Shown piece after piece: positions 25,611 to 62,500 of a stretch of 64,000 bases of DNA. This DNA is from an uncultured Flavobacteriales bacterium. GTDB lineage: Bacteria > Bacteroidota > Bacteroidia > Flavobacteriales_D > Crocinitomicaceae. Below the pieces are notes generated by a model that was not told where the DNA came from, did no database searches, and worked only from the letters and a program-made list of their open reading frames with translations. How positions within the stretch are numbered: the stretch's first letter is position 1; the number at the start of each line of letters is the position of its first letter. Where the stretch lies: the NCBI GenBank assembly GCA_903945495.1, contig CAJAVU010000070.1, positions 1 through 64,000 of the forward strand, given 5' to 3'. Position numbers and translations under genes: made by a program.

Positions 25611-25670
25611 AAATCACAAATCACAAATCACAAATCACAAATCACAAATCACAAATCACAAATCACAAAT
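25611..25670. repeat. Tandem 7-bp repeat, 8.6 copies
   Basis: AAATCAC is repeated perfectly eight times with a partial ninth (AAAT). It lies between the convergent tyrS and truA genes, just after the tyrS terminator and 3 bases before the truA stop codon. It is a simple-sequence repeat likely to vary in copy number; there are no spacers, so it is not a CRISPR. Confidence 0.95.
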
Positions 25671-43453: not shown

Positions 43454-44473
43454 CTATTTTTTCTTTTCAGAAAGAAATGGATTTGCCAAATAATTTTGAT
43501 CCGTAAGTGTATTTAAGAAAGTAATTAAATCCTGTTTTTCCTGAGTTGTGAAATTAAATCCTGTCCCCAAACTAGTGGCTAAAGTTGAGCTTTGAACAAT
43601 GCCATTGCTATAGTGATCGAGAACTTGATTCAATGTAAAGAAACGACCATCGTGCATATAAGGGTATGTCAGTGCTACATTTCTCAACGAAGGAATTCTA
43701 AATTTTCCATTATCATTCGGGTCTTGTGTTACCAAGCCTCTGCCTAAATCATTCGTGAAATCACTGTCTAAACCATTGTTTGCAAAGCCAAAAGAACTTG
43801 TTAAAGGTTCTGTATGACAAGAGGCACAATGCGTTTTGAATAATTGTAATCCATTTTCTTCGGCGCTAGTAAATGTTGTTTTACCTAATACGTAATTGTC
43901 GTATTTTGATTCTGCAGAAATCATCATTGCCATGAATTGAGCAAGTGCTTTCAACAGTTTTTGATCTGTTACAGTTTCACTTCCATATGCCTTCTTGAAT
44001 TTTTCTTTATAGTGCGCACTGGCATTTAATTTGGCAACAACGTTAGTCATTGTTTCATGCATTTCTAAAGGATTTGTAATCGGCGCGAACGAAAACGTTT
44101 CGATATGATTAATACCACCATCCCACATGAAGTTTGGATACCATGCCAAATTAGATAAAGCTGGAGAGTTTCTTTTTCCAACAGTATTGTTTACTCCTAA
44201 ACTAAAATTTACATTATGATCTGCGAATCCATGGGTTTGCGCATGACACTTTGCACAAGAAATGGTGCTATCCAATGATAAAATCGGATCATAAAATAAT
44301 TCACGACCTAAATCAAAACGATCGTAGGTTTGAGTATTGTTTTCAAATTTGTAATGCGGTTCTGGAAAATGTGAAGGTTTTTCAAATCCCCATTCTTTGT
44401 AATTTTCAATTTCCGCTTTTTTACATGAAAATAGAAAAGCACTAATCGCAACTATGAATAATATTGTTCTCAT
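43454..44473 (-). CDS. MbnH-like diheme cytochrome c peroxidase family lipoprotein
   Basis: Periplasmic lipoprotein of about 339 residues; start at MRTILFIVAISAFLFSC with lipobox cysteine 17 (the longer in-frame ORF would read through a terminator). Two c-type heme motifs: CAKCH (C73, C76, H77) and CASCH (C216, C219, H220), as in the CcpA/MauG family. The gene directly upstream encodes an MbnP-like protein, which is the known partner of MbnH, a MauG relative that oxidises a tryptophan of MbnP to kynurenine in copper acquisition. The MbnH assignment rests on this pairing. Ordinary peroxidase activity is the alternative. Confidence 0.83.
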   Translation of the reverse strand: MRTILFIVAISAFLFSCKKAEIENYKEWGFEKPSHFPEPHYKFENNTQTYDRFDLGRELFYDPILSLDSTISCAKCHAQTHGFADHNVNFSLGVNNTVGKRNSPALSNLAWYPNFMWDGGINHIETFSFAPITNPLEMHETMTNVVAKLNASAHYKEKFKKAYGSETVTDQKLLKALAQFMAMMISAESKYDNYVLGKTTFTSAEENGLQLFKTHCASCHTEPLTSSFGFANNGLDSDFTNDLGRGLVTQDPNDNGKFRIPSLRNVALTYPYMHDGRFFTLNQVLDHYSNGIVQSSTLATSLGTGFNFTTQEKQDLITFLNTLTDQNYLANPFLSEKKK

Positions 44474-44479
44474 ATTTTG

Positions 44480-44510
44480 AAAAAAATCCCCTCTGTCAAA
44501 CAGAGGGGAA
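44480..44510 (-). terminator. Rho-independent terminator or attenuator between mbnP-like and mbnH-like genes
   Basis: A 9-bp perfect stem, TCCCCTCTG with CAGAGGGGA, closes a five-base loop, followed by a T run on the minus strand. It lies between the stop of the MbnP-like gene and the start of the MbnH-like gene, so it may lower MbnH expression relative to MbnP. Confidence 0.8.
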
Positions 44511-44516
44511 TGATTA

Positions 44517-45281
44517 TTATTCGTGGATGTGATCAAAAGCGATACCACCATAGAAATCTGTCGCCATTGTTTTTGCAGTAGCACCTGGCATCATCAAAGA
44601 ACTTGTAGTTGCTAAAGAAGCAGAAGAATGCCAAAGTTTAGCAGGATTTACAGTCATATGAACTTCTGAAGTGTGTCCACCAGTTACTGTCAAAGAGTTT
44701 CCAGCAAAATTAACTGTCTTAACAGTTACAACATTGTTACTTCCCATAAATCCACCTAAATGGAATGCAAAAGAACCAGAACCAGAATTAGGCGAAGTTC
44801 CTTCAGCTTTCACCATGATATATCCTGAATTCCAACTCCAGAACATATTATTTGCAACAGCTAAAGCACCTGATTGTGCACCTGATACATTTCTTAAACT
44901 ATCTACACCCATTGTATATTCCATGTCAGTATATTCGCCAGTAGGAACATTTGGAATTGATAAAATTTCTGAACCTGCAGTCGCTAAATCAACTAAGAAA
45001 TAACTTTCAGGGTGAACATACCAACTTCCGTCCGCTTTTTTGAATTTAATGTTCGAAACGTAATATTTAAATGTTGTAAAGGTCATTGTGTCTTGCGTCA
45101 TAGGGTGAACTAATTCCATGTTTAACAAGAAATTGTCCGCACCCATTCCCCATCGGTGAGCCATGTTAAGTTCAACAGTACCTGTTGTCTCTGTTGGTGT
45201 TGTGTCTTTATCATCTTTTTTACATGACGATACGGAAAGTGCGGACACAACAAGTGCCGCAGAAATAAATAAATTTTTCAT
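44517..45281 (-). CDS. MbnP-like copper-associated lipoprotein
   Basis: Lipoprotein of 254 residues (lipobox VSSC20). The MbnP family (PF20243) pattern is visible: VELNMAHRWG, TFTTFKYYVSNIKFKKADGSW, DSLRNVSGAQSGAL, NNMFWSWNSGYIMVKAEG and FHLGG near 180, with several His and Met residues. Family members bind copper, and one tryptophan is converted to kynurenine by MbnH; the W residues in FWSWNSGY are candidates. It sits between a small Cys-rich protein gene and the diheme enzyme gene on one strand, so the three probably form a copper-related unit. Confidence 0.85.
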   Translation of the reverse strand: MKNLFISAALVVSALSVSSCKKDDKDTTPTETTGTVELNMAHRWGMGADNFLLNMELVHPMTQDTMTFTTFKYYVSNIKFKKADGSWYVHPESYFLVDLATAGSEILSIPNVPTGEYTDMEYTMGVDSLRNVSGAQSGALAVANNMFWSWNSGYIMVKAEGTSPNSGSGSFAFHLGGFMGSNNVVTVKTVNFAGNSLTVTGGHTSEVHMTVNPAKLWHSSASLATTSSLMMPGATAKTMATDFYGGIAFDHIHE

Positions 45282-45351
45282 GTTTTTTACTAATTGCCCG
45301 AAGGCGAGTTAACTAATTAATTTTTCAATAAGAGTATTCAAATAGTTATCA

Positions 45352-45747
45352 TTAGCAAGGAGGATGATCAATAGTTTGATTTATATCAAAATCATAATGA
45401 TCACTATAATAGTAATTAGTGCTTTTTGTTATGTAGTAACCGTCATTCGAAATGGATGGAAATTCTGGTTTAAGCAAGGTGAATTCAGCTTGTTTCGTTT
45501 TAAACTCCTTTTTGGATTGATTTTTACCTTTCGAATCAAGCAGATTAATTTCATTTTCAACCTTACGCAATTTTTTTGCTAGTTGACATTGCCCATTACA
45601 TTTTAGTTCTGGTTTGTTCTTGTTAACACAATAACGTGCAGTTATAAAATCTTGGTTTACTTTCCAATCAATCATAATAAGTGTCTGAATTACCGCTTGA
45701 AAGCAGATAATTACAGCAAATAATACTATGATTGATTTTTTAAGCAT
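45352..45747 (-). CDS. Small Cys-containing membrane-anchored protein
   Basis: Protein of 131 residues with an N-terminal hydrophobic segment (about 5-27) and a conserved-looking cluster CVNKNKPELKCNGQCQLAKKL (C40, C50, C54), then a Lys-rich helix (about 55-85). The C-terminus ends HPPC. Similar small proteins with N-KPEL-CxGxC motifs are, as far as I recall, found near copper genes in Bacteroidota. It is 70 bases upstream of the MbnP-like gene on the same strand. The Cys pattern suggests metal binding, but this is inference. Confidence 0.7.
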   Translation of the reverse strand: MLKKSIIVLFAVIICFQAVIQTLIMIDWKVNQDFITARYCVNKNKPELKCNGQCQLAKKLRKVENEINLLDSKGKNQSKKEFKTKQAEFTLLKPEFPSISNDGYYITKSTNYYYSDHYDFDINQTIDHPPC

Positions 45748-45751
45748 TTTG

Positions 45752-45759
45752 CAAAATTA
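45752..45759 (-). promoter_or_regulatory. -7 promoter element of the Cys-containing protein gene
   Basis: On the minus strand TAATTTTG fits TAnnTTTG only 4 bases before the ATG, which would give a leaderless mRNA. No -33 TTG is present; the inverted repeat at 45769-45811 takes that place. Confidence 0.4.
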
Positions 45760-45768
45760 AATCTTTTT

Positions 45769-45811
45769 TGGTGGAGATATTATGATTTAGCTCATAAAAT
45801 CAGCTCCACCA
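45769..45811. promoter_or_regulatory. Nested inverted repeat, possible operator
   Basis: TGGTGGAG pairs with CTCCACCA, and inside it TGATTT pairs with AAATCA. There is no T run on either strand, so it is not a terminator. It lies just upstream of the -7 element of the Cys-containing protein gene and could bind a regulator of the copper-linked unit. Confidence 0.4.
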
Positions 45812-45832
45812 TAGAATTACAATTACATTCCT

Positions 45833-47155
45833 TTATTTCGAAATAGCAATTTTTAGTTTTTTACCTTTCACTTTTTCAATTCGAATTTTTCCAAGAAGGC
45901 TGTTGATGTTTTTGCGTTTAACTGCTACATACGAAGTGAAATCTTGAACGGAAATTAATCCAATTTCTTCTTTCTTTAAACCACCTTTTTGTCCCAAGAA
46001 CCCCACAAGATCAATTTTATTAATCTTGTCTTTTTTACCGCCGCTGAAATACAAGGTAATCCAAGGACTTTCTGTTGGTCCCATCAAATCATTTGGAATA
46101 CGGTATTCTGTATCTGGAATTTGAATATAATCTGGTGTGTTTTCTTCTTTGTTAATTAACAAATACGATGAACCATTTGCTTTCATTCTTGCAGTTCGTC
46201 CGTTGCGATGAATAAATGCTTCTTCACTGTGCGGATATTGGAAATGCACCACATGTTGAATTTCAGGAATGTCCAAACCACGAGATCCTAAATCTGTACA
46301 AATTAAGGTATGATAACTTCCATTTCTAAATTTAATCAGCGCTCGTTCGCGTTCATCCTGTTCCATTCCTCCATGATAAATAATGGATTCATAGCCGTTT
46401 TCATTTAAATATTCAGAAACACTTTCCGTGGCTTCTCTGAAATTGCAAAAAACAATCGTTAATTCGCCATTGAACGAGCATAATAAATCAAACAAACGCT
46501 CAAACTTGGTGCTTGTTTTCACTGGGAAATTCCAAAATGTAATTGATGGCTCTTGCGAATTCGACAGGTGATTAATGATTGTTGGAGCGTTGAAATCCAA
46601 ATAGGCAGGAAATTCTTTGTGCTCAGTTGCAGAAACTAATGTAGTTTGTCTTAAATCAGTAAATTCTTGATAGATAAACTTGATTTGATCCTCGAAACCA
46701 AACTCTAAACTTTTGTCATATTCGTCAACAATAAATTGCTTTACATTCGACAAGTCGATTGTGTTTCGCGTGATGTGATCGCAGATTCTACCTGGAGTTC
46801 CGATTAAAACAGCAGGGGATTCTGATAAACTATTTTTTTCAACTTGCATTGAGTGTCCGCCGTAACAAGTTAGAACTTTGAAGTTCGTTTTCATAGCGCG
46901 AAAAACGCTTTCAATTTGTATGGCTAATTCTCTTGAAGGAGCAAGGATGACTGCTTGAATATCTGTTACTTGTTGGTCTAAACGTAAGAAAAGTGGTAAT
47001 AGAAAAGCGAATGTTTTTCCTGAACCGGTTTGAGAAAGGAGCATCATGTTTTTTGACGTTTCACTTTTCTCAAGTGTTTCCTGTTGAAGTTGATTTAATT
47101 CAGAGAATCCGATAGAACTCAAAATTGAATCGATTTGATGTTGATGTTTATTCAT
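45833..47155 (-). CDS. DbpA-like DEAD-box RNA helicase (motif II DEYD)
   Basis: RNA helicase of 440 residues with both RecA domains: Q motif LNQLQQETLE, Walker A SQTGSGKT, PSRELA, GTPGRI, motif II reading VDEYD instead of DEAD, SAT in VSATEHKE, GSRGLDIPE and HRNGRTARM. The C-terminal 75 residues (VTLYFSGGKKDKINKIDLVGFL) match the DbpA RNA-binding domain, which recognises hairpin 92 of 23S rRNA. A role in 50S ribosome assembly follows from the family. The Ala to Tyr change in motif II is unusual but keeps the catalytic DE. Confidence 0.87.
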   Translation of the reverse strand: MNKHQHQIDSILSSIGFSELNQLQQETLEKSETSKNMMLLSQTGSGKTFAFLLPLFLRLDQQVTDIQAVILAPSRELAIQIESVFRAMKTNFKVLTCYGGHSMQVEKNSLSESPAVLIGTPGRICDHITRNTIDLSNVKQFIVDEYDKSLEFGFEDQIKFIYQEFTDLRQTTLVSATEHKEFPAYLDFNAPTIINHLSNSQEPSITFWNFPVKTSTKFERLFDLLCSFNGELTIVFCNFREATESVSEYLNENGYESIIYHGGMEQDERERALIKFRNGSYHTLICTDLGSRGLDIPEIQHVVHFQYPHSEEAFIHRNGRTARMKANGSSYLLINKEENTPDYIQIPDTEYRIPNDLMGPTESPWITLYFSGGKKDKINKIDLVGFLGQKGGLKKEEIGLISVQDFTSYVAVKRKNINSLLGKIRIEKVKGKKLKIAISK

Positions 47156-47217
47156 ACCACAAAGATAAGATTATTGTTAGAGCTCAATACGAACTGCAAC
47201 TAGGTAAAATCAAACAC

Positions 47218-47253
47218 AAAAAAAAGCCGTCTTCATTGATGAAAGCGGCTTTT
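47218..47253 (-). terminator. Rho-independent terminator of the fad operon
   Basis: AAAGCCG and TTCAT pair with ATGAA and CGGCTTT (two 2-base internal mismatches), with a T run on the minus strand, 18 bases after the fadA stop. Confidence 0.85.
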
Positions 47254-47270
47254 AACTATAACTTATTTTG

Positions 47271-48449
47271 TTAAATCATTTCTATAACGCCAGCTGCACC
47301 TTGTCCGGTTCCAACACACATAGTAACAATACCATATTTTTGTTGACGTTTTTTCAATTCATTCATGATTTGAACTGATAGTTTTGCGCCTGTACAGCCT
47401 AGTGGATGACCAAGAGCCAAAGCACCACCGTTTACGTTTACTATTTCTGGATTGATTCCTGTTTCACGAATAACAGCCAACGATTGAGAAGCAAATGCTT
47501 CATTCAATTCGAATAAATTAATATCGTTTAATGACAAACCAGCTGCTTTAATTGCTTTTGGAATTGCATCAACAGGTCCAATACCCATGATTCGTGGTTC
47601 AACTCCAACAACGGAATACGACGCCAAACGCGCAATTGGTTCCAAATTCAATTCTTTTACCATACGTTCAGACATGACCAATACGAATGCTGCTCCATCA
47701 GATGTTTGTGAAGAATTTCCTGCAGTAACTGAACCTCCATTTGCGAAAACGGGCTTCAAATTTCCTAAGGCTTCTATGCTACTAACGCGTGGACCTTCAT
47801 CTGTATCCACAATGTATTTTTCTACTTGGCGTTTTTCGTTTGCGTCTAAAAAGATGCGTTCAACTTCTACTGGAACAATATCATCCTTAAATCTGCCAGA
47901 TTGAATTGCTGCCAAAGCTTTGTTGTGTGAGTGAACTGCAAATGCATCTTGTTCTTCTCGTGTAACTTTATATTGTTGCGCAACCGCTTCAGCCGTTAGT
48001 CCCATTCCCCAATACCAATTCGGATTTTCTTTGCCCACTTTTGGATTTGGAACAATTCTCCAACCACCCATTGCCATAACAGACATTGATTCAACGCCTC
48101 CTGCAATGATACATTCAGCCATTCCACTTTCGATTTTTGCTGTGGCAATTGCAATGGTTTCCAATCCTGATGAACAATAACGATTTACCGTCATTCCAGG
48201 AACTTTGTCTGTATTCATTCCCATTAAAGAAATCATACGTCCAACGTTCAAACCTTGTTCAGCTTCAGGAGTGGCATTTCCAACAATTACATCGTCAACA
48301 CGCAATTTATCTAATTGAGGAACAGAAGCCATTAAATGTTTAATTACATCTGCTGCCAAATCATCAGGTCGGTAAAAACGAAATCCGCCTTTACCTGCTT
48401 TGCCAACTGCAGATCTGAAACCTGCTACTATATATGCTCTTTGTCCCAT
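47271..48449 (-). CDS. fadA: Acetyl-CoA acyltransferase (3-ketoacyl-CoA thiolase)
   Basis: Thiolase of 392 residues for the last step of beta-oxidation. Catalytic cysteine in NRYCSSGLETIAIA (about 90), GGVESMSVMAMGG, NEAFASQSLAV, and the C-terminal NGGALALGHPLGCTGAKL and MCVGTGQGAAGV with the second active-site Cys. It follows fadB in the operon, but an S23-type gene and its repeats lie between them. fadA belongs to the marR-fadB-fadA group. Confidence 0.94.
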   Translation of the reverse strand: MGQRAYIVAGFRSAVGKAGKGGFRFYRPDDLAADVIKHLMASVPQLDKLRVDDVIVGNATPEAEQGLNVGRMISLMGMNTDKVPGMTVNRYCSSGLETIAIATAKIESGMAECIIAGGVESMSVMAMGGWRIVPNPKVGKENPNWYWGMGLTAEAVAQQYKVTREEQDAFAVHSHNKALAAIQSGRFKDDIVPVEVERIFLDANEKRQVEKYIVDTDEGPRVSSIEALGNLKPVFANGGSVTAGNSSQTSDGAAFVLVMSERMVKELNLEPIARLASYSVVGVEPRIMGIGPVDAIPKAIKAAGLSLNDINLFELNEAFASQSLAVIRETGINPEIVNVNGGALALGHPLGCTGAKLSVQIMNELKKRQQKYGIVTMCVGTGQGAAGVIEMI

Positions 48450-48460
48450 TTTTTTAGATA

Positions 48461-48492
48461 TTAAGATGTTAAGATTTTAAGATTTTAGGACT
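48461..48492 (+). repeat. Left inverted-repeat arm: four 8-bp units
   Basis: Four near-identical units TTAAGATG, TTAAGATT, TTAAGATT, TTAGGACT. The arm ends 22 bases from the S23 stop codon and starts 12 bases before the fadA start. Its complement is repeated at 48898-48926. Confidence 0.85.
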
Positions 48493-48514
48493 CAAACCTT
48501 AACATCAATATTAT

Positions 48515-48898
48515 TTACTTTTCTGTTTTTAGTATTCTCTTGAAAGCACCGATCATCTTCTGAAGTGTTTCTAACTCTATTAATATTGACTTAGTTTGAA
48601 TTTTGAAAATATCTTCAATTAAGATTAATTGTGTCTCAAGTTCATAAGAAGAAGATATCGCAATATTTAAAAAATGAAGAAATTCCTTTTCAGTAGTTCT
48701 ACCAGAACCTTCAGCAATATTTGAAGGAATAGAAACGGCACAACGATTAATTTGAGATACTAATCCAAACTTTTCATCTTTTGGTAATTGGGAAGTAAGA
48801 AGATAAACATTCTTAACTAGAACCAATGATTCTTTCCAAATTTTCAATTCCCGGAAATTATGTACTTTCTTCAAATCACAATTTTTTACTTCATTCAA
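48515..48898 (-). CDS. S23/IVP-type four-helix-bundle protein
   Basis: Protein of about 127 residues of the four-helix-bundle family first seen as ORFs in 23S rRNA intervening sequences (also related to Avd of diversity-generating retroelements). Family landmarks: HNFRELKIWKESLVL, QINRCAVSIPSNIAEGSGR and a C-terminal LIELETLQKMIGAFKRIL. Function in the cell is unknown. The start is TTG at 48898 (an in-frame stop lies two codons upstream) or a later TTG; no in-frame ATG precedes the domain. The TTG lies at the inner edge of the right repeat arm, so the repeats and gene look like one unit. Confidence 0.85.
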   Translation of the reverse strand: MNEVKNCDLKKVHNFRELKIWKESLVLVKNVYLLTSQLPKDEKFGLVSQINRCAVSIPSNIAEGSGRTTEKEFLHFLNIAISSSYELETQLILIEDIFKIQTKSILIELETLQKMIGAFKRILKTEK

Positions 48899-48926
48899 GT
48901 CTTAAAATCTTAAAATCTTAAAATCC
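48898..48926 (-). repeat. Right inverted-repeat arm
   Basis: On the minus strand: a partial unit (GGATT), then TTAAGATT, TTAAGATT, TTAAGACT. It matches the left arm at 48461-48492 in inverted orientation over about 24 bases with one or two differences. Confidence 0.85.
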
Positions 48927-48940
48927 TTCAATCATAAAGT

Positions 48941-51346
48941 CTAATTCCGAAGGATTTTACCGTTTTTTACTAGACTTTCCAATCGTTCTAAGGTTTTGCG
49001 TTCAGCACAAAGCTCAACAAATGCCTTGCGTTCTAAGTCAAGCAGATATTGCTCTGAAACAACAGTGTTTTCACTTAAATCACCACCACAAAGAACAAAA
49101 CCTAGTTTCTCAGAAATCACACGATCGTGGTCTGACATATAATTTCCAGAAAGCATTGAATTCGCACCAACGTAAACAATTCCAAGACCTTCTTGTCCCA
49201 TCACGGTTATGTTTTTCTCACGTTTTGGTGCGATATAGCCTTTGTTTGCTAATTCAATTGCGGCAGCTTTTGCACGTGCAAGTTGGTGATCACGACTCAC
49301 AACTACTTCATCGATACCATTTCTTAAATAACCAAGGTCGAATGCTTCATATGCAGAAGTAGAAACTTTTGCTTGACCAATGGTTAAGAAGCGCTCTCTC
49401 AAACGGTTGATTTTGATATCACCTTCTTTTAATTCTTCAGATAAACGTTTTGCGTATTCTTTGGAACCACCGCCACCTGGAATTAAACCAACTCCAAATT
49501 CAACTAATCCCATGTACAATTCAGCATGCGCTACGACCTTATCTGCGTGCATTGACATTTCACATCCACCACCTAAAGCCATGTTGTGAGGAGCAACGAT
49601 TACAGGAATGTTCGAATAGCGAATGCGCATCATTGTATCTTGGAATGCTTTTACAGCAAAATTCAATTCATCATAATCTTGCTCAATTGCCATCATGAAA
49701 ATCATTCCAACATTGGCTCCAGCTGAGAAATTTTGTCCGGTATTTGAAATCACCAAACCTTTGTATTCTTTTTCTGCTAAGTCGATCGCCTTGTTAATTC
49801 CTTCAATTACTCCACCGCCAATTGTATTCATTTTTGTGTGGAATTCTAAGTTCAAAATTCCATCACCAAGATTGACAAGTGTTGTATCAGAATTGCCCCA
49901 AACTTTATTTTCAGAGCGCAAAGCATCTAATAGAACTAGGTTTTCGGTTCCCGGAATTGTTTTGTAGGATTTGGATTGAACATCATAATACATTTTTTGG
50001 CCTTTTTCCAATTTGTAGAATGATGTAATTCCAGCAGCTTTCATATCTGAAATCCACGCAGCTGCAGTTTTGTTATTGTCTGCTATTAATTTTAATCCTT
50101 GATCTAAACCGAGAATATCCCATGTTTCAAACGGACCAAGTTCCCAACCAAATCCTGCTTTTAACGCATCGTCGATTTTGTAAAGATCATCTGTTATTTC
50201 AGGTAAACGATTGGAAACGTAGGCGAATAGTCCTCCAAACAATTTTCGGTAGAATTCACCGGCCTTATCCATTCCCATGAATAACATTTTTGTGCGTTGT
50301 TTTAAGTCATCGATTGGCTTTGTCATTTCTAAGGTTGCGAATTTCACCTTTTCAGACGCACGATATTCTAACGTTTTTAAATCTAACGCATGAATTTCAC
50401 TTTTGCCATCCGCTGTTTTTACTTTTTTGTAGAAACCTTGTCCAGATTTAGATCCAAGCCAATTGTTTTCAACCATTTTGGAAATGTAACCAGGCAATTC
50501 AAACAATGCTTTTTCTTCATCTGAAGGACAATTTGCTTTCAAGCCATTTGCTACGTGAACCAAGGTGTCCAAACCAACAACATCACATGTTCTGAAAGTG
50601 GCAGATTTTGGGCGACCTAAAACAGGTCCAGTTAATTTATCAACTTCTTCAACTGTTAAACCCATTTCTGAAACAGCATGGAAAAGTGCCATGATTGAAT
50701 AAACCCCAACTCGATTTGCGATGAAAGCTGGTGTGTCTTTGCACAATACTGTTTTCTTACCAAGGAAGCGTGAGCCATAATCCATCAAGAAGTCAATTAC
50801 TTCAGGTTTTGTTGATGGAGTAGGGATGATTTCCAATAATTGTAAATAGCGCGGTGGATTGAAAAAATGTGTTCCACAGAAATATGCTTTGAAATCGTCT
50901 GATCTTCCATCCAACATCATGTGAATTGGAATTCCAGATGTATTTGATGTAATAAGCGTTCCAGGAGTTCTGTATTTTTCAACTTGTTCGAAAACAAGTT
51001 TTTTGATATCCAAACGCTCAATCACCACTTCAATGACCCAATCACAATTTGCAATTTTCGCCATATCATCGTCAAAGTTTCCAGTCACAATACGTTGCGC
51101 AAATGATTTACGATAAATTGGTGATGGATTTGATTTTACTGCGGTTTCAAGAGATTGATTGACAATTCTGTTTCGAACAGCTTTTGAGTCAAGGCTTAAT
51201 CCTTTTTTTGTTTCGTCAGCTGTCAGTTCTTTTGGAGCAATGTCCAATAGAATTACTTCACAGCCAATGTTGGCAAAATGACAAGCAATTCTTGAACCCA
51301 TAACACCAGAACCGAGAACGGCAACCTTTTTAATGTGTGTGTTCAT
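48941..51346 (-). CDS. fadB: 3-hydroxyacyl-CoA dehydrogenase / enoyl-CoA hydratase
   Basis: Bifunctional beta-oxidation enzyme of 801 residues. The N-terminal Rossmann domain has VAVLGSGVMGSRIACHFA, followed by FCGTHFFNPPRYLQLLEIIP and DVVGLDTLVHVANGL of the hydroxyacyl-CoA dehydrogenase. The C-terminal half is crotonase-like (about 480-720), with the oxyanion regions SAGANVGMIFMMA and IPVIVAPHNMALGGGCEMSMHADKVVAH. The domain order (dehydrogenase first) is the opposite of E. coli FadB and typical of Bacteroidota. It follows the marR gene by 10 bases. Confidence 0.93.
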   Translation of the reverse strand: MNTHIKKVAVLGSGVMGSRIACHFANIGCEVILLDIAPKELTADETKKGLSLDSKAVRNRIVNQSLETAVKSNPSPIYRKSFAQRIVTGNFDDDMAKIANCDWVIEVVIERLDIKKLVFEQVEKYRTPGTLITSNTSGIPIHMMLDGRSDDFKAYFCGTHFFNPPRYLQLLEIIPTPSTKPEVIDFLMDYGSRFLGKKTVLCKDTPAFIANRVGVYSIMALFHAVSEMGLTVEEVDKLTGPVLGRPKSATFRTCDVVGLDTLVHVANGLKANCPSDEEKALFELPGYISKMVENNWLGSKSGQGFYKKVKTADGKSEIHALDLKTLEYRASEKVKFATLEMTKPIDDLKQRTKMLFMGMDKAGEFYRKLFGGLFAYVSNRLPEITDDLYKIDDALKAGFGWELGPFETWDILGLDQGLKLIADNNKTAAAWISDMKAAGITSFYKLEKGQKMYYDVQSKSYKTIPGTENLVLLDALRSENKVWGNSDTTLVNLGDGILNLEFHTKMNTIGGGVIEGINKAIDLAEKEYKGLVISNTGQNFSAGANVGMIFMMAIEQDYDELNFAVKAFQDTMMRIRYSNIPVIVAPHNMALGGGCEMSMHADKVVAHAELYMGLVEFGVGLIPGGGGSKEYAKRLSEELKEGDIKINRLRERFLTIGQAKVSTSAYEAFDLGYLRNGIDEVVVSRDHQLARAKAAAIELANKGYIAPKREKNITVMGQEGLGIVYVGANSMLSGNYMSDHDRVISEKLGFVLCGGDLSENTVVSEQYLLDLERKAFVELCAERKTLERLESLVKNGKILRN

Positions 51347-51356
51347 ACTTTTCAGG

Positions 51357-51806
51357 TTAATCTATTTTATTGTTTTTTAATTCTTCTTCTATCAATTCGT
51401 CTACTTGAGCTGCAACTTCGAAAAATGCTTGAAGCTTCGATTTCGGAATCTTTGCATAAATACGCTCATTGAAACCAACGACGAAATTGCGCACCATTTT
51501 ACGCATTTCAACACCGTCAGGAGTCAAAAAGATTAAGACTTTACGCTTGTCAACTAAATCTTCTTCACGACGAATTAAACCACGTTCTTCCATGGTTTTA
51601 ATCGTTCTAGAAAGCGAAGTTGGTTCCATTCCCATGCGAGGGCCGAGTTGCGTACTTGGTGTACCTTCTTTGTCAACAGACATTAAAATGAAACCAATCG
51701 ACATGGTTAAATCGTGTTCTGCTGCACGTTGGTTATACATTCGAGAAATTCGATGCCACGAATGTCTCACTACAAAATCAAATAATAATTCAGGTTTTTC
51801 TGCCAT
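51357..51806 (-). CDS. MarR family transcriptional regulator
   Basis: DNA-binding regulator of 149 residues. The winged helix-turn-helix is at about 55-110 (LGPRMGMEPTSLSRTIKTMEERGLIRR, EDLVDKRKVLIFLTPDGVEMRK). It is first in the marR-fadB-fadA operon, so it probably controls fatty acid degradation in response to acyl-CoA or fatty acid. An inverted repeat overlaps its own promoter region (51811-51842), which suggests autorepression. Confidence 0.87.
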   Translation of the reverse strand: MAEKPELLFDFVVRHSWHRISRMYNQRAAEHDLTMSIGFILMSVDKEGTPSTQLGPRMGMEPTSLSRTIKTMEERGLIRREEDLVDKRKVLIFLTPDGVEMRKMVRNFVVGFNERIYAKIPKSKLQAFFEVAAQVDELIEEELKNNKID

Positions 51807-51810
51807 ACAT

Positions 51811-51842
51811 ATATTTTAGCACGCTTAAATGTACTAAAATAT
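51811..51842. promoter_or_regulatory. Candidate MarR operator: inverted repeat
   Basis: ATATTTTAG and CTAAAATAT are perfect complements separated by 14 bases, starting 5 bases upstream of the MarR start codon. A weak -7-like TACATTTA (minus strand) lies inside it. Placement fits autorepression by the MarR protein; not tested. Confidence 0.45.
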
Positions 51843-51905
51843 TTTATGCTTGCATATAAAAATTGATTTTTTTCAAGAAAAGATTGAACTTGAAATTATG
51901 CCTGT

Positions 51906-52313
51906 TTACCAGCAATCTTGGGAAATGTGGACAGTACCTTTAAATAGAGAGATTAACTTGTTTTCTTGATTGGTAATTTCCACTTCGTAAATTCCAGTTG
52001 TTCTGCCACGATGCATTTCTTTAGCCTTTGCCGTTAAAACATCACCTAATTTAGCAGGGCGAATGTGTGAAATGGAAGTTTCAAGACTTACGCATTTGTT
52101 GCCGCGTGAATTAGATGCGAATGCCAAAGCAGAATCAGAAAGGGAATAGGAAATACCTCCGTGAAGAATTTCGAAGCCGTTTAGCATTTCGGCATGCACA
52201 GTTGTGGATAGTTCACAAAATCCTAAACCAAGTGAATGAACTGATAAATTCATCCACTTGCTAAAGGCATCTTTTTCAAGCATGATTCCGACAATTTCTT
52301 CAGGCGATTTCAT
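51906..52313 (-). CDS. PaaI-type hotdog-fold thioesterase
   Basis: Acyl-CoA thioesterase-like protein of 135 residues. The hotdog signature is clear: MLNGFEILHGGISYSLSDSALAFASNSRG with the H-G-G and D residues, followed by ISHIRPAKLGDVLTAKAKEMHRGRTTGIYEVEI. PaaI members hydrolyse hydroxylated phenylacetyl-CoA and related thioesters. It lies near the fad genes, so a housekeeping role in acyl-CoA clearance is plausible. Confidence 0.88.
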   Translation of the reverse strand: MKSPEEIVGIMLEKDAFSKWMNLSVHSLGLGFCELSTTVHAEMLNGFEILHGGISYSLSDSALAFASNSRGNKCVSLETSISHIRPAKLGDVLTAKAKEMHRGRTTGIYEVEITNQENKLISLFKGTVHISQDCW

Positions 52314-52337
52314 GGTTGTAATATGTTGAGAAAGCGA

Positions 52338-52817
52338 TTATGCTTCGATTGCACGATTTAACAATGTAATCATTGCTAATGTTACAATAAATAATTGTGT
52401 TGCTGTTTCGTCATCCAATGTCGTTCCATCTTCATCTTCTGTTGAAATTTCCATGGCCATGAATTGTGTTAATTCAGGTTGATCACAGAAATCTTCCAAT
52501 ACTTCGTCGTCGTCATTTTCAAAATATGCATCCAACATGTCGAAGTATGGTTCTTCGAAAGCATCAATATCTTCTTCTGTTACGAGTCTGATTTTTAATC
52601 CTTCAGTATCAAAACATTCAGAAATAAGACAATAATAATAGATTAGTAAACCTTCTAATTTTTCGTTTTGATATTCGATTGCAGCTGACATGACGTAGCT
52701 CAATAATGTTTGCTGTGCGAGAGCATATTTTTCTGATAATTGCTCTAAACCATCGTCATCTAAATTGTCAACTTTCTTAATTGCAGTTTCAATACTTGCG
52801 AAGGATACGTGTTTCAT
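52338..52817 (-). CDS. Acidic hypothetical protein
   Basis: Protein of 159 residues, strongly acidic (long D/E runs such as AYFENDDDEVLEDF and EISTEDEDGTTLDDE), predicted helical, with no signal peptide. No domain was recognised. It is 24 bases upstream of the PaaI-like gene on the same strand and probably co-transcribed with it. Confidence 0.65.
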   Translation of the reverse strand: MKHVSFASIETAIKKVDNLDDDGLEQLSEKYALAQQTLLSYVMSAAIEYQNEKLEGLLIYYYCLISECFDTEGLKIRLVTEEDIDAFEEPYFDMLDAYFENDDDEVLEDFCDQPELTQFMAMEISTEDEDGTTLDDETATQLFIVTLAMITLLNRAIEA

Positions 52818-52902
52818 CTTTACTAATTTTTGGTAAAGTTACTGAATATTTGGGAATGAGAAGTTTTCAAAAAAAGCATAGCAACGATTCTTCAAAATCT
52901 CT

Positions 52903-52910
52903 TACATTTG
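52903..52910 (+). promoter_or_regulatory. -7 promoter element of the DUF2461 gene
   Basis: TACATTTG fits TAnnTTTG, 16 bases before the ATG. No -33 TTG was seen. Confidence 0.4.
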
Positions 52911-52926
52911 AATAAATTAAAATACC

Positions 52927-53601
52927 ATGGCATTTTTTACCCCTGATTTTTTACAGTTTTTCATTGAATTAGCACCGAACAATCACAAAGATTGGTTTGA
53001 TTTGAATCGCAAACGTTATGAAAAATCTGTTAAAGAACCTTTTAAGGATTTTGTGGAACACATGATCAAAGAAATTGCTAAAACCGACGCAAGTTTCAAA
53101 GATTTGGAGGCAAAGGATTGTATTTTTCGAATCAATCGCGATATCCGTTTTTCAAAAGATAAAACTCCTTACAAAATGAATGTTTCAGCAGTTGTTGCTC
53201 CTGAAGGAAAGAAAAGCAAGGCTGTAAATGGTGTTTATTTTGAGTTTGGTCCTGAGCATGTGCGCGTTTATGGAGGAGTTTATGAAATCGATAAAGAGGA
53301 TTTATTGACAGTTCGTGAAGGAATCGCAAATGATTTGAAAGGTTTTCAAGAAGCGTATTCAAATCCGAGATTCAAAAAAGTATTTGGAACGATTTTAGGA
53401 GAAAAAAATAAAGTAATTCCAAAAGAATTGAAAGAAGCAGCAGAGAAAGAGCCCTTGATTTTTAATAAACAATGGTATTTTTACGCGCAATTTGATGCTG
53501 AAACAGTGTTGGATCCGAAATTAGATCAATTGTTGTTGGATTGTTTTGAAGCAGGAAAACCGGTTGAGCACTACTTTAATAAATTAATAAAACGAAATTA
53601 A
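52927..53601 (+). CDS. DUF2461 domain-containing protein
   Basis: Cytoplasmic protein of 224 residues matching DUF2461 (PF09365): FFIELAPNNHKDWFDLNRKRYEKSVKEPFKDFV at the start and FRINRDIRFSKDKTPYKMNVSAVVAPEGKK in the middle, ending with LDCFEAGKPVEHYF. The family is widespread in Bacteroidota with unknown function. Transcribed alone; the S9 peptidase gene follows 40 bases later. Confidence 0.9.
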   Translation: MAFFTPDFLQFFIELAPNNHKDWFDLNRKRYEKSVKEPFKDFVEHMIKEIAKTDASFKDLEAKDCIFRINRDIRFSKDKTPYKMNVSAVVAPEGKKSKAVNGVYFEFGPEHVRVYGGVYEIDKEDLLTVREGIANDLKGFQEAYSNPRFKKVFGTILGEKNKVIPKELKEAAEKEPLIFNKQWYFYAQFDAETVLDPKLDQLLLDCFEAGKPVEHYFNKLIKRN

Positions 53602-53641
53602 TCACACGCTAGAAAGTCACTTTTTAGTTAAATAACACGAT

Positions 53642-55774
53642 ATGTTTAAACACATTTTACTTATTGGAGCACTTGTATTAACGAGTGGAACTTTTGCTCA
53701 GAAGAAAGAGTTAACGTTAAAAGACGCTGTGTCGAATCAGTACCGTTCGCTTGGTCCAGATCGATTGTATGGTTTTCAATGGATTCCAAATACAGATGCT
53801 TATTCTTTTTTCAGCAAGAACTATCAAACAGTTTACAAGTCATCTGCAATAACGAAAGAAGATCGTGAGTTGCTTACAATTCAAGCGTTTAATACAGCTT
53901 GTAAAAGCGAGATGACTAGTTTCTTTGGATTGCAATGGAAAAATGAGAATGAGTTTTACTTGAATGATGGAGTACATTATTATTTGTATAACACATCTAC
54001 TGGAGTTGGTAAAATGCTTCATACGATAGATGGAGAAGTTGGAGCGACCTTGTTTTCAAACGCAACAGAAAACGTGGCGTATACCATTGAAAATAATGTG
54101 TTCATTCATACATTGGATGGTTTGAAACTGGTTGTTACATCAAATTCAGACAAAAACATCGTTTCTGGTCAAGCAATTGCGCGCAGTGAGTTTGGAATTT
54201 CTGGAGGTTTATTTTGGTCTCCAAATGGACAGCACCTAGCTTTTTACCAAAAAGATGAAACGAATGTACACGATTATCCATTAGTTGATATCAATCAAAC
54301 ACCGGGTGAATTGACGCCGATTAAATATCCAATGGCAGGACAAAAATCAGAGAATCCTAAAGTTGGAATTTACCATTTGGCAAAAAAAGCAACTGTTTTT
54401 ATTACACCAAAAGGGGCTGCGGATGACTATTTAACGAATATCACTTTTACGCCAGATAACAATTATGTTGTGATCGCAGAAGTGAACAGAGATCAAAATC
54501 ACATGTGGTTAAATGTCTATGATGTTAAAACAGGTGTTTTTGTTAAAACGTTGTTGGAAGAATCAAATGACAAATGGGTAGAACCAGAACATCCAGCATA
54601 TTTCCCAAGTGAAAAGTCAAACAACTTCATTTGGATTTCTGAAATCGATGGGTTTAATAACTTGTATTACTATGATTTCACTGGGAAATTGATTAAAAAG
54701 TTGACTTCAAACAAATTTGTTGCAAAAGACATATTGGAAACGAAAAACGGAGGCAAATTGATTTATTTCTCAGCAACTGGACCAAATGGAATGAATACCA
54801 TGGTTTATTCGGTTGATTTGTCAGCGAAACAAACATTGGTTACCAAAATGGAAGGTACGCATGAGTTTTCTTTGACGACAAGCGGTAAATATTTCTATGA
54901 TGCTTTTTCTAGCCATACTGTTCCGCATAAAGCAGAGATTTTTGCAGCAAATGGAAAAACTATTAAATTCTTAATTGAGAGCAAAGAGAAATTAGCTGAT
55001 TATGCAATTGGAACTGCGGATATTTCAACATTAACAGGTAAGGATGGTTCAATTTTGTATACACGTTTGATTAAACCAAGCAACTTCGATCCAACAAAAA
55101 AATACCCAGTTCTTGTATATGTTTACGGAGGTCCACATGCGCAACTTGTGACAAATTCATGGTTGGATGGCGCGAATTTATGGATGTATTGGATGGCTGA
55201 ACAAGGGTATCTAGTTTACACATTGGATGGTCGTGGATCAGGTGAAAGAGGTTTTGCATTTGAATCACAAATCCACCGCCAATTAGGAACTGTTGAAATG
55301 GAAGATCAATTGACGGGGGTTAACTATTTGAAATCTTTACCTTATGTTGATGCAAATCGTTTAGCTGTTCACGGTTGGTCATTTGGAGGATTCATGACAA
55401 CTTCATTGATGTTGAGAAATCCAGGAGTGTTCCAAGTTGGTGTTGCTGGTGGACCTGTAACGGATTGGAAGTATTATGAAATTATGTACGGAGAGCGTTA
55501 CATGGATCGTCCAGAACAAAATCCAAAAGGATATGAGCAAGCAAGTTTGTTGACACATGCTGGAAATCTAAAAGGAGATTTGTTATTGATTCATGGAACT
55601 GTTGATGATGTGGTTGTGATGCAACACAATTTTGCCTTGGTGAAAAAGTTTGTTGATCTTGGAATTCAAATGGATTTCTTCCCGTATCCAATGCATAAGC
55701 ACAATGTGACAGGTAAAGATCGCGTTCATTTGATGGAAAAAGTGTTGACCTATGTGATTGAAAATAATAAATAA
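53642..55774 (+). CDS. S9 family peptidase (dipeptidyl-peptidase IV-like)
   Basis: Exported serine peptidase of 710 residues; signal peptide to about 20 (GTFAQ). Residues about 45-460 form the DPP IV-type beta-propeller with repeated FGLQWKNENEFYLNDG-like blades; the alpha/beta hydrolase follows with nucleophile S580 in HGWSFGGFM, acid in IHGTVDDVV and histidine in YPMHKHN. Cuts dipeptides after proline or alanine, probably in the periplasm. A terminator follows at 55791. Confidence 0.93.
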   Translation: MFKHILLIGALVLTSGTFAQKKELTLKDAVSNQYRSLGPDRLYGFQWIPNTDAYSFFSKNYQTVYKSSAITKEDRELLTIQAFNTACKSEMTSFFGLQWKNENEFYLNDGVHYYLYNTSTGVGKMLHTIDGEVGATLFSNATENVAYTIENNVFIHTLDGLKLVVTSNSDKNIVSGQAIARSEFGISGGLFWSPNGQHLAFYQKDETNVHDYPLVDINQTPGELTPIKYPMAGQKSENPKVGIYHLAKKATVFITPKGAADDYLTNITFTPDNNYVVIAEVNRDQNHMWLNVYDVKTGVFVKTLLEESNDKWVEPEHPAYFPSEKSNNFIWISEIDGFNNLYYYDFTGKLIKKLTSNKFVAKDILETKNGGKLIYFSATGPNGMNTMVYSVDLSAKQTLVTKMEGTHEFSLTTSGKYFYDAFSSHTVPHKAEIFAANGKTIKFLIESKEKLADYAIGTADISTLTGKDGSILYTRLIKPSNFDPTKKYPVLVYVYGGPHAQLVTNSWLDGANLWMYWMAEQGYLVYTLDGRGSGERGFAFESQIHRQLGTVEMEDQLTGVNYLKSLPYVDANRLAVHGWSFGGFMTTSLMLRNPGVFQVGVAGGPVTDWKYYEIMYGERYMDRPEQNPKGYEQASLLTHAGNLKGDLLLIHGTVDDVVVMQHNFALVKKFVDLGIQMDFFPYPMHKHNVTGKDRVHLMEKVLTYVIENNK

Positions 55775-62396: not shown

Positions 62397-62399
62397 ATT

Positions 62400-62432
62400 A
62401 ACCTAAACCTAACCTAAACCTAACCTAAACCT
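62400..62432 (-). repeat. Three perfect 11-bp tandem repeats
   Basis: AACCTAAACCT is repeated exactly three times on the plus strand (AGGTTTAGGTT on the minus). It lies within the candidate small RNA. Confidence 0.95.
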
Positions 62433-62500
62433 TAACAATTATATGCTCGAGGTGCTTAAAAATGATTGATTAAGTAATTCACCTCAAATCGACTACATGA

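Follow-up and report, generated by a model that had tools for sequence, protein, structure and literature searches.

The fadB–fadA junction of an uncultured Crocinitomicaceae bacterium (GCA_903945495.1, contig CAJAVU010000070.1, positions 1–64,000; hereafter the window) is occupied by a 491-bp cassette (48450–48940, minus strand) that carries a single S23/IVP four-helix-bundle gene between inverted arrays of a short word. We consider it likely that this unit is an S23 cassette of the intervening sequence (IVS) type residing in an mRNA context, that is, a small selfish or passenger unit with inverted arrays of a 7–8 nt word, inserted in the sense direction between co-transcribed genes. A precise junction either holds the whole unit or lacks it, and closely related units lie at other operon junctions. 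The same architecture occurs within a 23S rRNA gene, and arms match within an element even though words differ between elements. Moreover, the arms of an element match each other better than they match those of relatives at the same site. We further infer a possible mode of movement, a putative role for S23 and possible processing by RNase III.

fadB (48941–51346), the S23 gene and fadA (47271–48449) lie on one strand (minus), and the cassette fills the interval from the fadB stop to the fadA ATG exactly. The upstream gene was delimited by its open reading frame (ORF) and an orthologue alignment, and the downstream gene by its ORF, with orthologues in 16/26 genomes; from recognition of the sequences rather than a database match, we take them to encode a 3-hydroxyacyl-CoA dehydrogenase/enoyl-CoA hydratase and a thiolase, respectively. 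In the S23 sense, the 5' arm (48898–48938, GATTTTAAGATTTTAAGATTTTAAGAC) is a GATTTTAA-type octad array, delimited by Tandem Repeats Finder and by inverted alignment to the other arm, and the 3' arm (48453–48492, GTCCTAAAATCTTAAAATCTTAACATCTTAA) is a AATCTTAA-type array that aligns with it as its reverse complement over ~40 nt. Tandem Repeats Finder reported period-8 arrays at 48451–48487 (4.6 copies) and 48900–48925 (TCTTAAAA, 3.2 copies). Together with the PF05635 match of the gene, these arrays bear out the original prediction, made from the sequence alone, of inverted 8-bp repeats tightly enclosing an S23 gene between fadB and fadA. The 466-bp segment proposed there is indeed a unit, albeit one that spans 491 bp, from about 48450 to 48940. 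When the same spacing was slid across the whole 64 kb, the arm pair scored 27 against a background mean of 8.8 (sd 1.8; 99.9th percentile 17.7); it is the best inverted pair at that spacing, and all scores of at least 20 mapped to the cassette site.

The S23 protein matched PF05635 with 115.8 bits (cut-off 33.8) and TIGR02436 with 110.8 bits (cut-off 24), and its closest solved structure is 2GSC (XCC0516). According to literature cited in PMC4990558, S23 forms a pentameric ring of four-helix bundles. The gene (48515–48871, minus strand, 118 aa) probably starts at TTG 48871 and not at the far TTG 48898, to which a longer ORF extends: the start common to the orthologues is the TTG of "TTG AAG AAA", which corresponds to window position 48871, and upstream of it the frame is closed in two orthologues (L040 and L039). 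With the shared start at TTG 48871, the coding sequence is clear of the 5' arm, and the earlier suggestion that a TTG start touches the right arm is probably incorrect. Judging from the ratio of nonsynonymous to synonymous substitution rates (dN/dS), the gene is under purifying selection (0.12 and 0.23 against the two closest orthologues; 0.05–0.23 over pairs with the window gene, in which dS was mostly saturated). We know of no accepted role for S23/IVP genes so far.

We compared junctions across genomes, mostly metagenome assemblies. A fadA match was present in 16 genomes of the genus; the junction was filled by S23 in 11 of them, exactly from the fadB stop to the fadA ATG, and the gap was only 2 nt in four (G001, G006, G015 and G016). 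Gene and repeats therefore come and go as a unit at this junction, as had been predicted. We also noted one genome (G017) in which an unrelated palindrome, CCCCCTTTAAAGGGGGATTGAGGGGG ... CCCTCCTTAATCCTCCCTCAAGGGAGG, stands in place of S23. The rpsO|pnp junction was filled in G000 and G022, clean and empty in G024, whose pnp is 97% identical to that of the window genome, and occupied in G007 (98% identical) by an internally deleted remnant that kept the 3' arm but lost the gene. At sdhA|sdhB, seven genomes were filled (G000 among them), others were empty and some had remnants; G007 was empty despite a SdhB 98% identical.

A tree of 154 S23 proteins placed the rpsO|pnp elements L006 and L023 within the fadBA clade (support 99/85). 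Four elements at a fourth junction, upstream of a gene resembling 3-hydroxyacyl-CoA dehydrogenase (L026, L027, L057 and L058), grouped with one fadBA element (L022_fad), with weaker support (92/72). S23 elements have thus moved within the genus among fadBA, rpsO–pnp and another site. In Sphingobacteria, fadB|fadA is likewise occupied by S23, but the protein belongs to another S23 clade, hence this junction has been hit more than once. At some sites, S23 is long-lived.

We also found inverted heptad arrays without S23 at rpsO|pnp (L179–L182) and sdhA|sdhB (L209–L211), junctions that are filled by S23 in relatives. Such forms would be expected if S23 worked in trans on scattered hairpins lacking the gene, in the manner of REPIN/RAYT systems. 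However, a sequence-specific action in trans sits poorly with words that differ from element to element, no short-spaced solo hairpin in the window rose above threshold, and internal deletion could account for the solo forms (compare L175); we regard this explanation as improbable.

Next, we asked how well the two arms of an element match, scoring its own 5' arm against its own 3' arm and comparing the score with those of arms swapped in from other elements. Arms were called significant when their own match was better than 95% of swapped arms (p<0.05); the p-values are ranks within small swap sets, with a minimum of about 0.007–0.02, and the S23 sets are best-hit samples rather than a census. 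Own arms outscored swapped arms in the genus (17.7 vs 11.6, n=75; 49% significant), in a named set of mostly Bacteroidota (19.4 vs 10.9, n=78; 69% with p<0.05), in Cyanobacteriota (24.8 vs 11.4; 22/29 significant) and in Pseudomonadota (23.5 vs 11.7; 18/28 significant). Across the three broader samples (Bacteroidota-rich, cyanobacterial and pseudomonadotal), 64–76% of S23 genes had significant arms, while 46 long ORFs of the window, as a control, scored 12.3 by the same measure. These results bear on the view that S23 is an ordinary operon gene that happens to lie beside chance repeats. Purifying selection on S23 and its long persistence at some sites would suit an ordinary gene, but the recurrence of arm matching in three large samples and at the rRNA locus, the clean empty sites, and an arm score well in excess of those elsewhere in the window refute this view as a whole.

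The word is 7 nt, sometimes 8, and varies from element to element (GATTTTAA, AGGTGAC and GTAGGCA, for example). Period 7 was found in 36/74 arms and period 8 in 9/74, and neither peak appeared in shuffled arms. The window genome alone has nine S23 genes, most of them armed, and the words differ among its loci. It follows that a TTAAGATT array is not the shared signature beside S23 genes that the original prediction took it to be; since the word is element-specific, the check proposed there, looking for TTAAGATT alongside S23 genes, would give a false negative. S23 proteins at least 60% identical but at different sites had strong arm similarity in 7.6–18% of pairs, as opposed to ~0.5% otherwise; below 60% identity, protein and word were unrelated (Mantel-like rho –0.03). 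Because words are shared only at or above 60% identity, the arms travel with the gene and then drift.

Word sharing among close relatives is also what an iteron model predicts, in which the arrays are DNA binding sites of the S23 protein, serving autoregulation or transposition, while the word evolves in step with the protein. Short-period inverted arrays do look like iterons, and a wobble signal expected of RNA was not found (see below). Nonetheless, the lack of any protein–word correlation below 60% identity and the diversity of the words argue against co-evolution, and common descent of recently moved copies accounts equally well for the sharing, hence we consider iterons unlikely. The word as a shared recognition sequence was rejected, being unrelated to the S23 protein below that identity. 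A further candidate, that the arms are remnants of target sequence, was also rejected: the 5' arm scored 7.9 against the left flank vs 7.3 for swapped controls (p=0.002), an excess driven by a few loci whose arrays extend into the flank, and other comparisons were weak or null.

Within groups of elements at the same site, own arms beat the arms of relatives by a mean of +2.0 (29 groups, Wilcoxon p=0.0017). The gain was clearest where words had diverged. Scores were 19.0 vs 12.4 at fadBA and 21.8 vs 13.2 at nuoC|nuoD. To account for arms that change yet stay matched in an IVS-type cassette, we suggest that slippage within an array may turn the word over, and that template switching in a hairpin ("quasipalindrome correction") might use the palindrome to copy the word of one arm into its partner. 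Cassettes whose arms agree on a word peculiar to each copy also provide an unusual natural setting in which to test the co-evolution of palindromes and tandem arrays.

S23 cassettes are strongly oriented. With neighbours called by the longest open frame at 200 loci, both were co-oriented with S23 at 164 (123+22+19) and both opposed at six (4+2+0). From our reading of the flanking proteins, we take the junctions to include sdhA|sdhB, rpsO|pnp, carA|carB, nuoC|nuoD, hisA|hisF and leuC|leuD. The arms are polar as well, with G exceeding C in 44/46 periodic 5' arms. We also noted that 5' arms are rich in stop triplets (223 vs 177.5, sd 11.3, upon permutation of letters within the unit; p=0.001). 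This enrichment raises the idea of a frame-independent stop array, in which a 7-nt word with TAG or TGA provides stops in three frames, insulates the upstream gene and makes insertions tolerable, while the 3' arm follows by pairing or copying. In agreement with this idea, three-frame stops occurred in 34/48 arms vs 23.2 expected, the signal was kept when the 3' arm was read as its reverse complement (257 vs 198.7) and when the outer 12 nt were trimmed (154 vs 128.1), and periods of 7 and 8, which are not multiples of 3, made up 45/47 periodic arms. But the excess is modest (~25%), some words have no stops, the G-over-C skew suggests another cause that sets polarity, and the matching of both arms is left unexplained; all told, we doubt that stop codons are the reason for the arrays.

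The RNA of the window unit is predicted to fold back with 34 arm–arm pairs, and the duplex energy of its own arms is –36.4 kcal/mol, compared with a mean of –14.7 with the 3' arms of other elements. A long mRNA hairpin, as originally envisaged, is thus predicted, whereas selection at the RNA level is not supported: mismatches between arms showed no G.U excess on the sense strand (122 G.U vs 173 A.C). Selection for RNA pairing was therefore rejected, the opposite of the sought excess having been found. This result is one of several that weigh against the unit being an IVS-type cassette as we propose. No target-site duplication was visible in alignments of filled and empty sites, and no excision product was demonstrated. 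The original proposal of a small mobile cassette accordingly holds as far as related units at other genomic places, in other phyla and moved between sites in the genus are concerned, but not for a mechanism of mobility. Significant arms were missing from roughly 30% of the S23 genes sampled broadly and from half of those in the genus. In addition, some same-site groups, such as carAB and sdhAB, showed little difference between own and cross matches, and where a group combines distant S23 clades, as fadBA does, such a difference could have come from independent insertions without concerted evolution.

The proposed identity with IVSs draws on elements located in rRNA. In two copies from one pseudomonadotal genome (L306 and L307), a 23S rRNA gene (RF02541, 1685.8 bits over the locus) encloses the S23 gene, and the stems are degenerate heptad arrays with arms GATTCAGGAATCAGAGTTCAGGAATTAGG / CCTGATCCCTGACCTCTGATTCCTGA. 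The 23S IVS of Coxiella has three tandem heptamers (GACAGAT) upstream of the S23 ORF and terminal inverted repeats that form a 28-bp stem, and RNase III cleaves it at the first repeat (PMC4990558). Given this similar heptad layout, we assign the window unit to the same type of element, here in mRNA. If it behaves as rRNA IVSs do, its transcript may fold back and be cut by RNase III at the stem, which would leave the neighbouring reading frames intact. S23, a relative of Avd, the accessory protein of diversity-generating retroelements (DGRs), might bind the hairpin or RNA of its own cassette and thereby aid its spread.

A wider proposal, which we put forward tentatively, is that S23 cassettes form a phylum-spanning selfish class with arms that renew themselves instead of serving as a fixed recognition sequence; each element would evolve a private word and keep its two arms identical through palindrome copying. 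Their grammar would comprise a period of 7–8, a 5' arm with G over C and stop triplets, and sense orientation in operons; rRNA IVSs would be the subset that landed in rRNA, and many unexplained intergenic heptamer arrays would be what remains of cassettes. rRNA intervening sequences have been regarded as an rRNA curiosity. Should cassettes outside rRNA prove to be the same element, the puzzles of S23 function and of rRNA IVSs merge into one, which could be tested in cultured bacteria with a cassette between carA–carB, nuoC–nuoD or leuC–leuD. We found no paper linking S23 genes outside rRNA to heptad arms, in a literature coverage largely without subscription journals, such that an earlier report is possible.

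Several further arrays and copies were noted. In the window, intergenic tandem heptads (AAATCAC, 8.6 copies) lie at 25611–25670; they lack an inverted partner, have no S23 gene close by and could be either what is left of a single arm or an unrelated array; Tandem Repeats Finder also reported about three copies of TAACCTAAACC at 62399–62436. In one cyanobacterium (G148), S23 occurs at different sites in at least nine copies that are nearly identical (L291–L301). Their upstream flanks diverge at TAACTGACGTTACGCA, and the end of L301 is TGCGTAACATCAGTTA, hence S23 seems to ride there in an element with terminal inverted repeats. At some loci (L103, L118, L130 and L166), one flank contains complete nested hairpins, as if several array elements had inserted side by side.

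Lastly, we compared the window unit with known systems. Like the 23S rRNA IVSs of Coxiella and Leptospira, it holds an S23 ORF within 0.4–0.5 kb with complementary ends (PMC4990558), but those lie in rRNA, whereas it lies between protein genes and has a word of the element-specific kind; an Rfam scan of 44000–54000 matched no family, placing the cassette outside any rRNA gene. Framed by complementary ends but located outside rRNA, the window unit works in the manner of an IVS without being a 23S IVS. DGRs share with it the four-helix-bundle superfamily, since the Avd model NF033474 gave a weak but significant match to the window protein (23.1 bits), far below its cut-off of 80. That match might hint at a retroelement in which S23 depends on a reverse transcriptase, as Avd works with one in DGRs. 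Such a partner was rejected, as RVT_1 is absent from six S23-bearing genomes that are 94–99% complete (G003, G008, G013, G021, G022 and G024), and we judge a retroelement of this type very improbable. The window unit has no linked reverse transcriptase, and S23 needs neither a nearby one nor a template/variable repeat. Miniature inverted-repeat transposable elements and insertion sequences resemble S23 cassettes in having inverted ends around a segment gained or lost as a whole; the ends of S23 cassettes, however, differ by copy instead of being conserved, with no target-site duplication found, no transposase and a strong sense orientation. REP (repetitive extragenic palindromic) sequences and REPINs with their RAYT share short intergenic palindromes, a protein gene of single-copy type and, at some sites, forms without the gene. 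S23, though, has no recognised nuclease motif, and its words are not genome-wide: rather than many copies of one palindrome, the S23 loci of the window genome carry different words, and their arms are period-7 arrays where REPs are hairpins tagged with a tetranucleotide. Finally, the heptamer repeats of cyanobacteria, Beggiatoaceae and Xanthomonas (TAACTGA, GGGAATC) are intergenic tandem arrays, often between co-oriented genes, and are left unexplained by the papers describing them (PMC4679880, PMC4692102); unlike S23 arms, they are mostly direct arrays of a single word, and S23 goes unmentioned in those reports.
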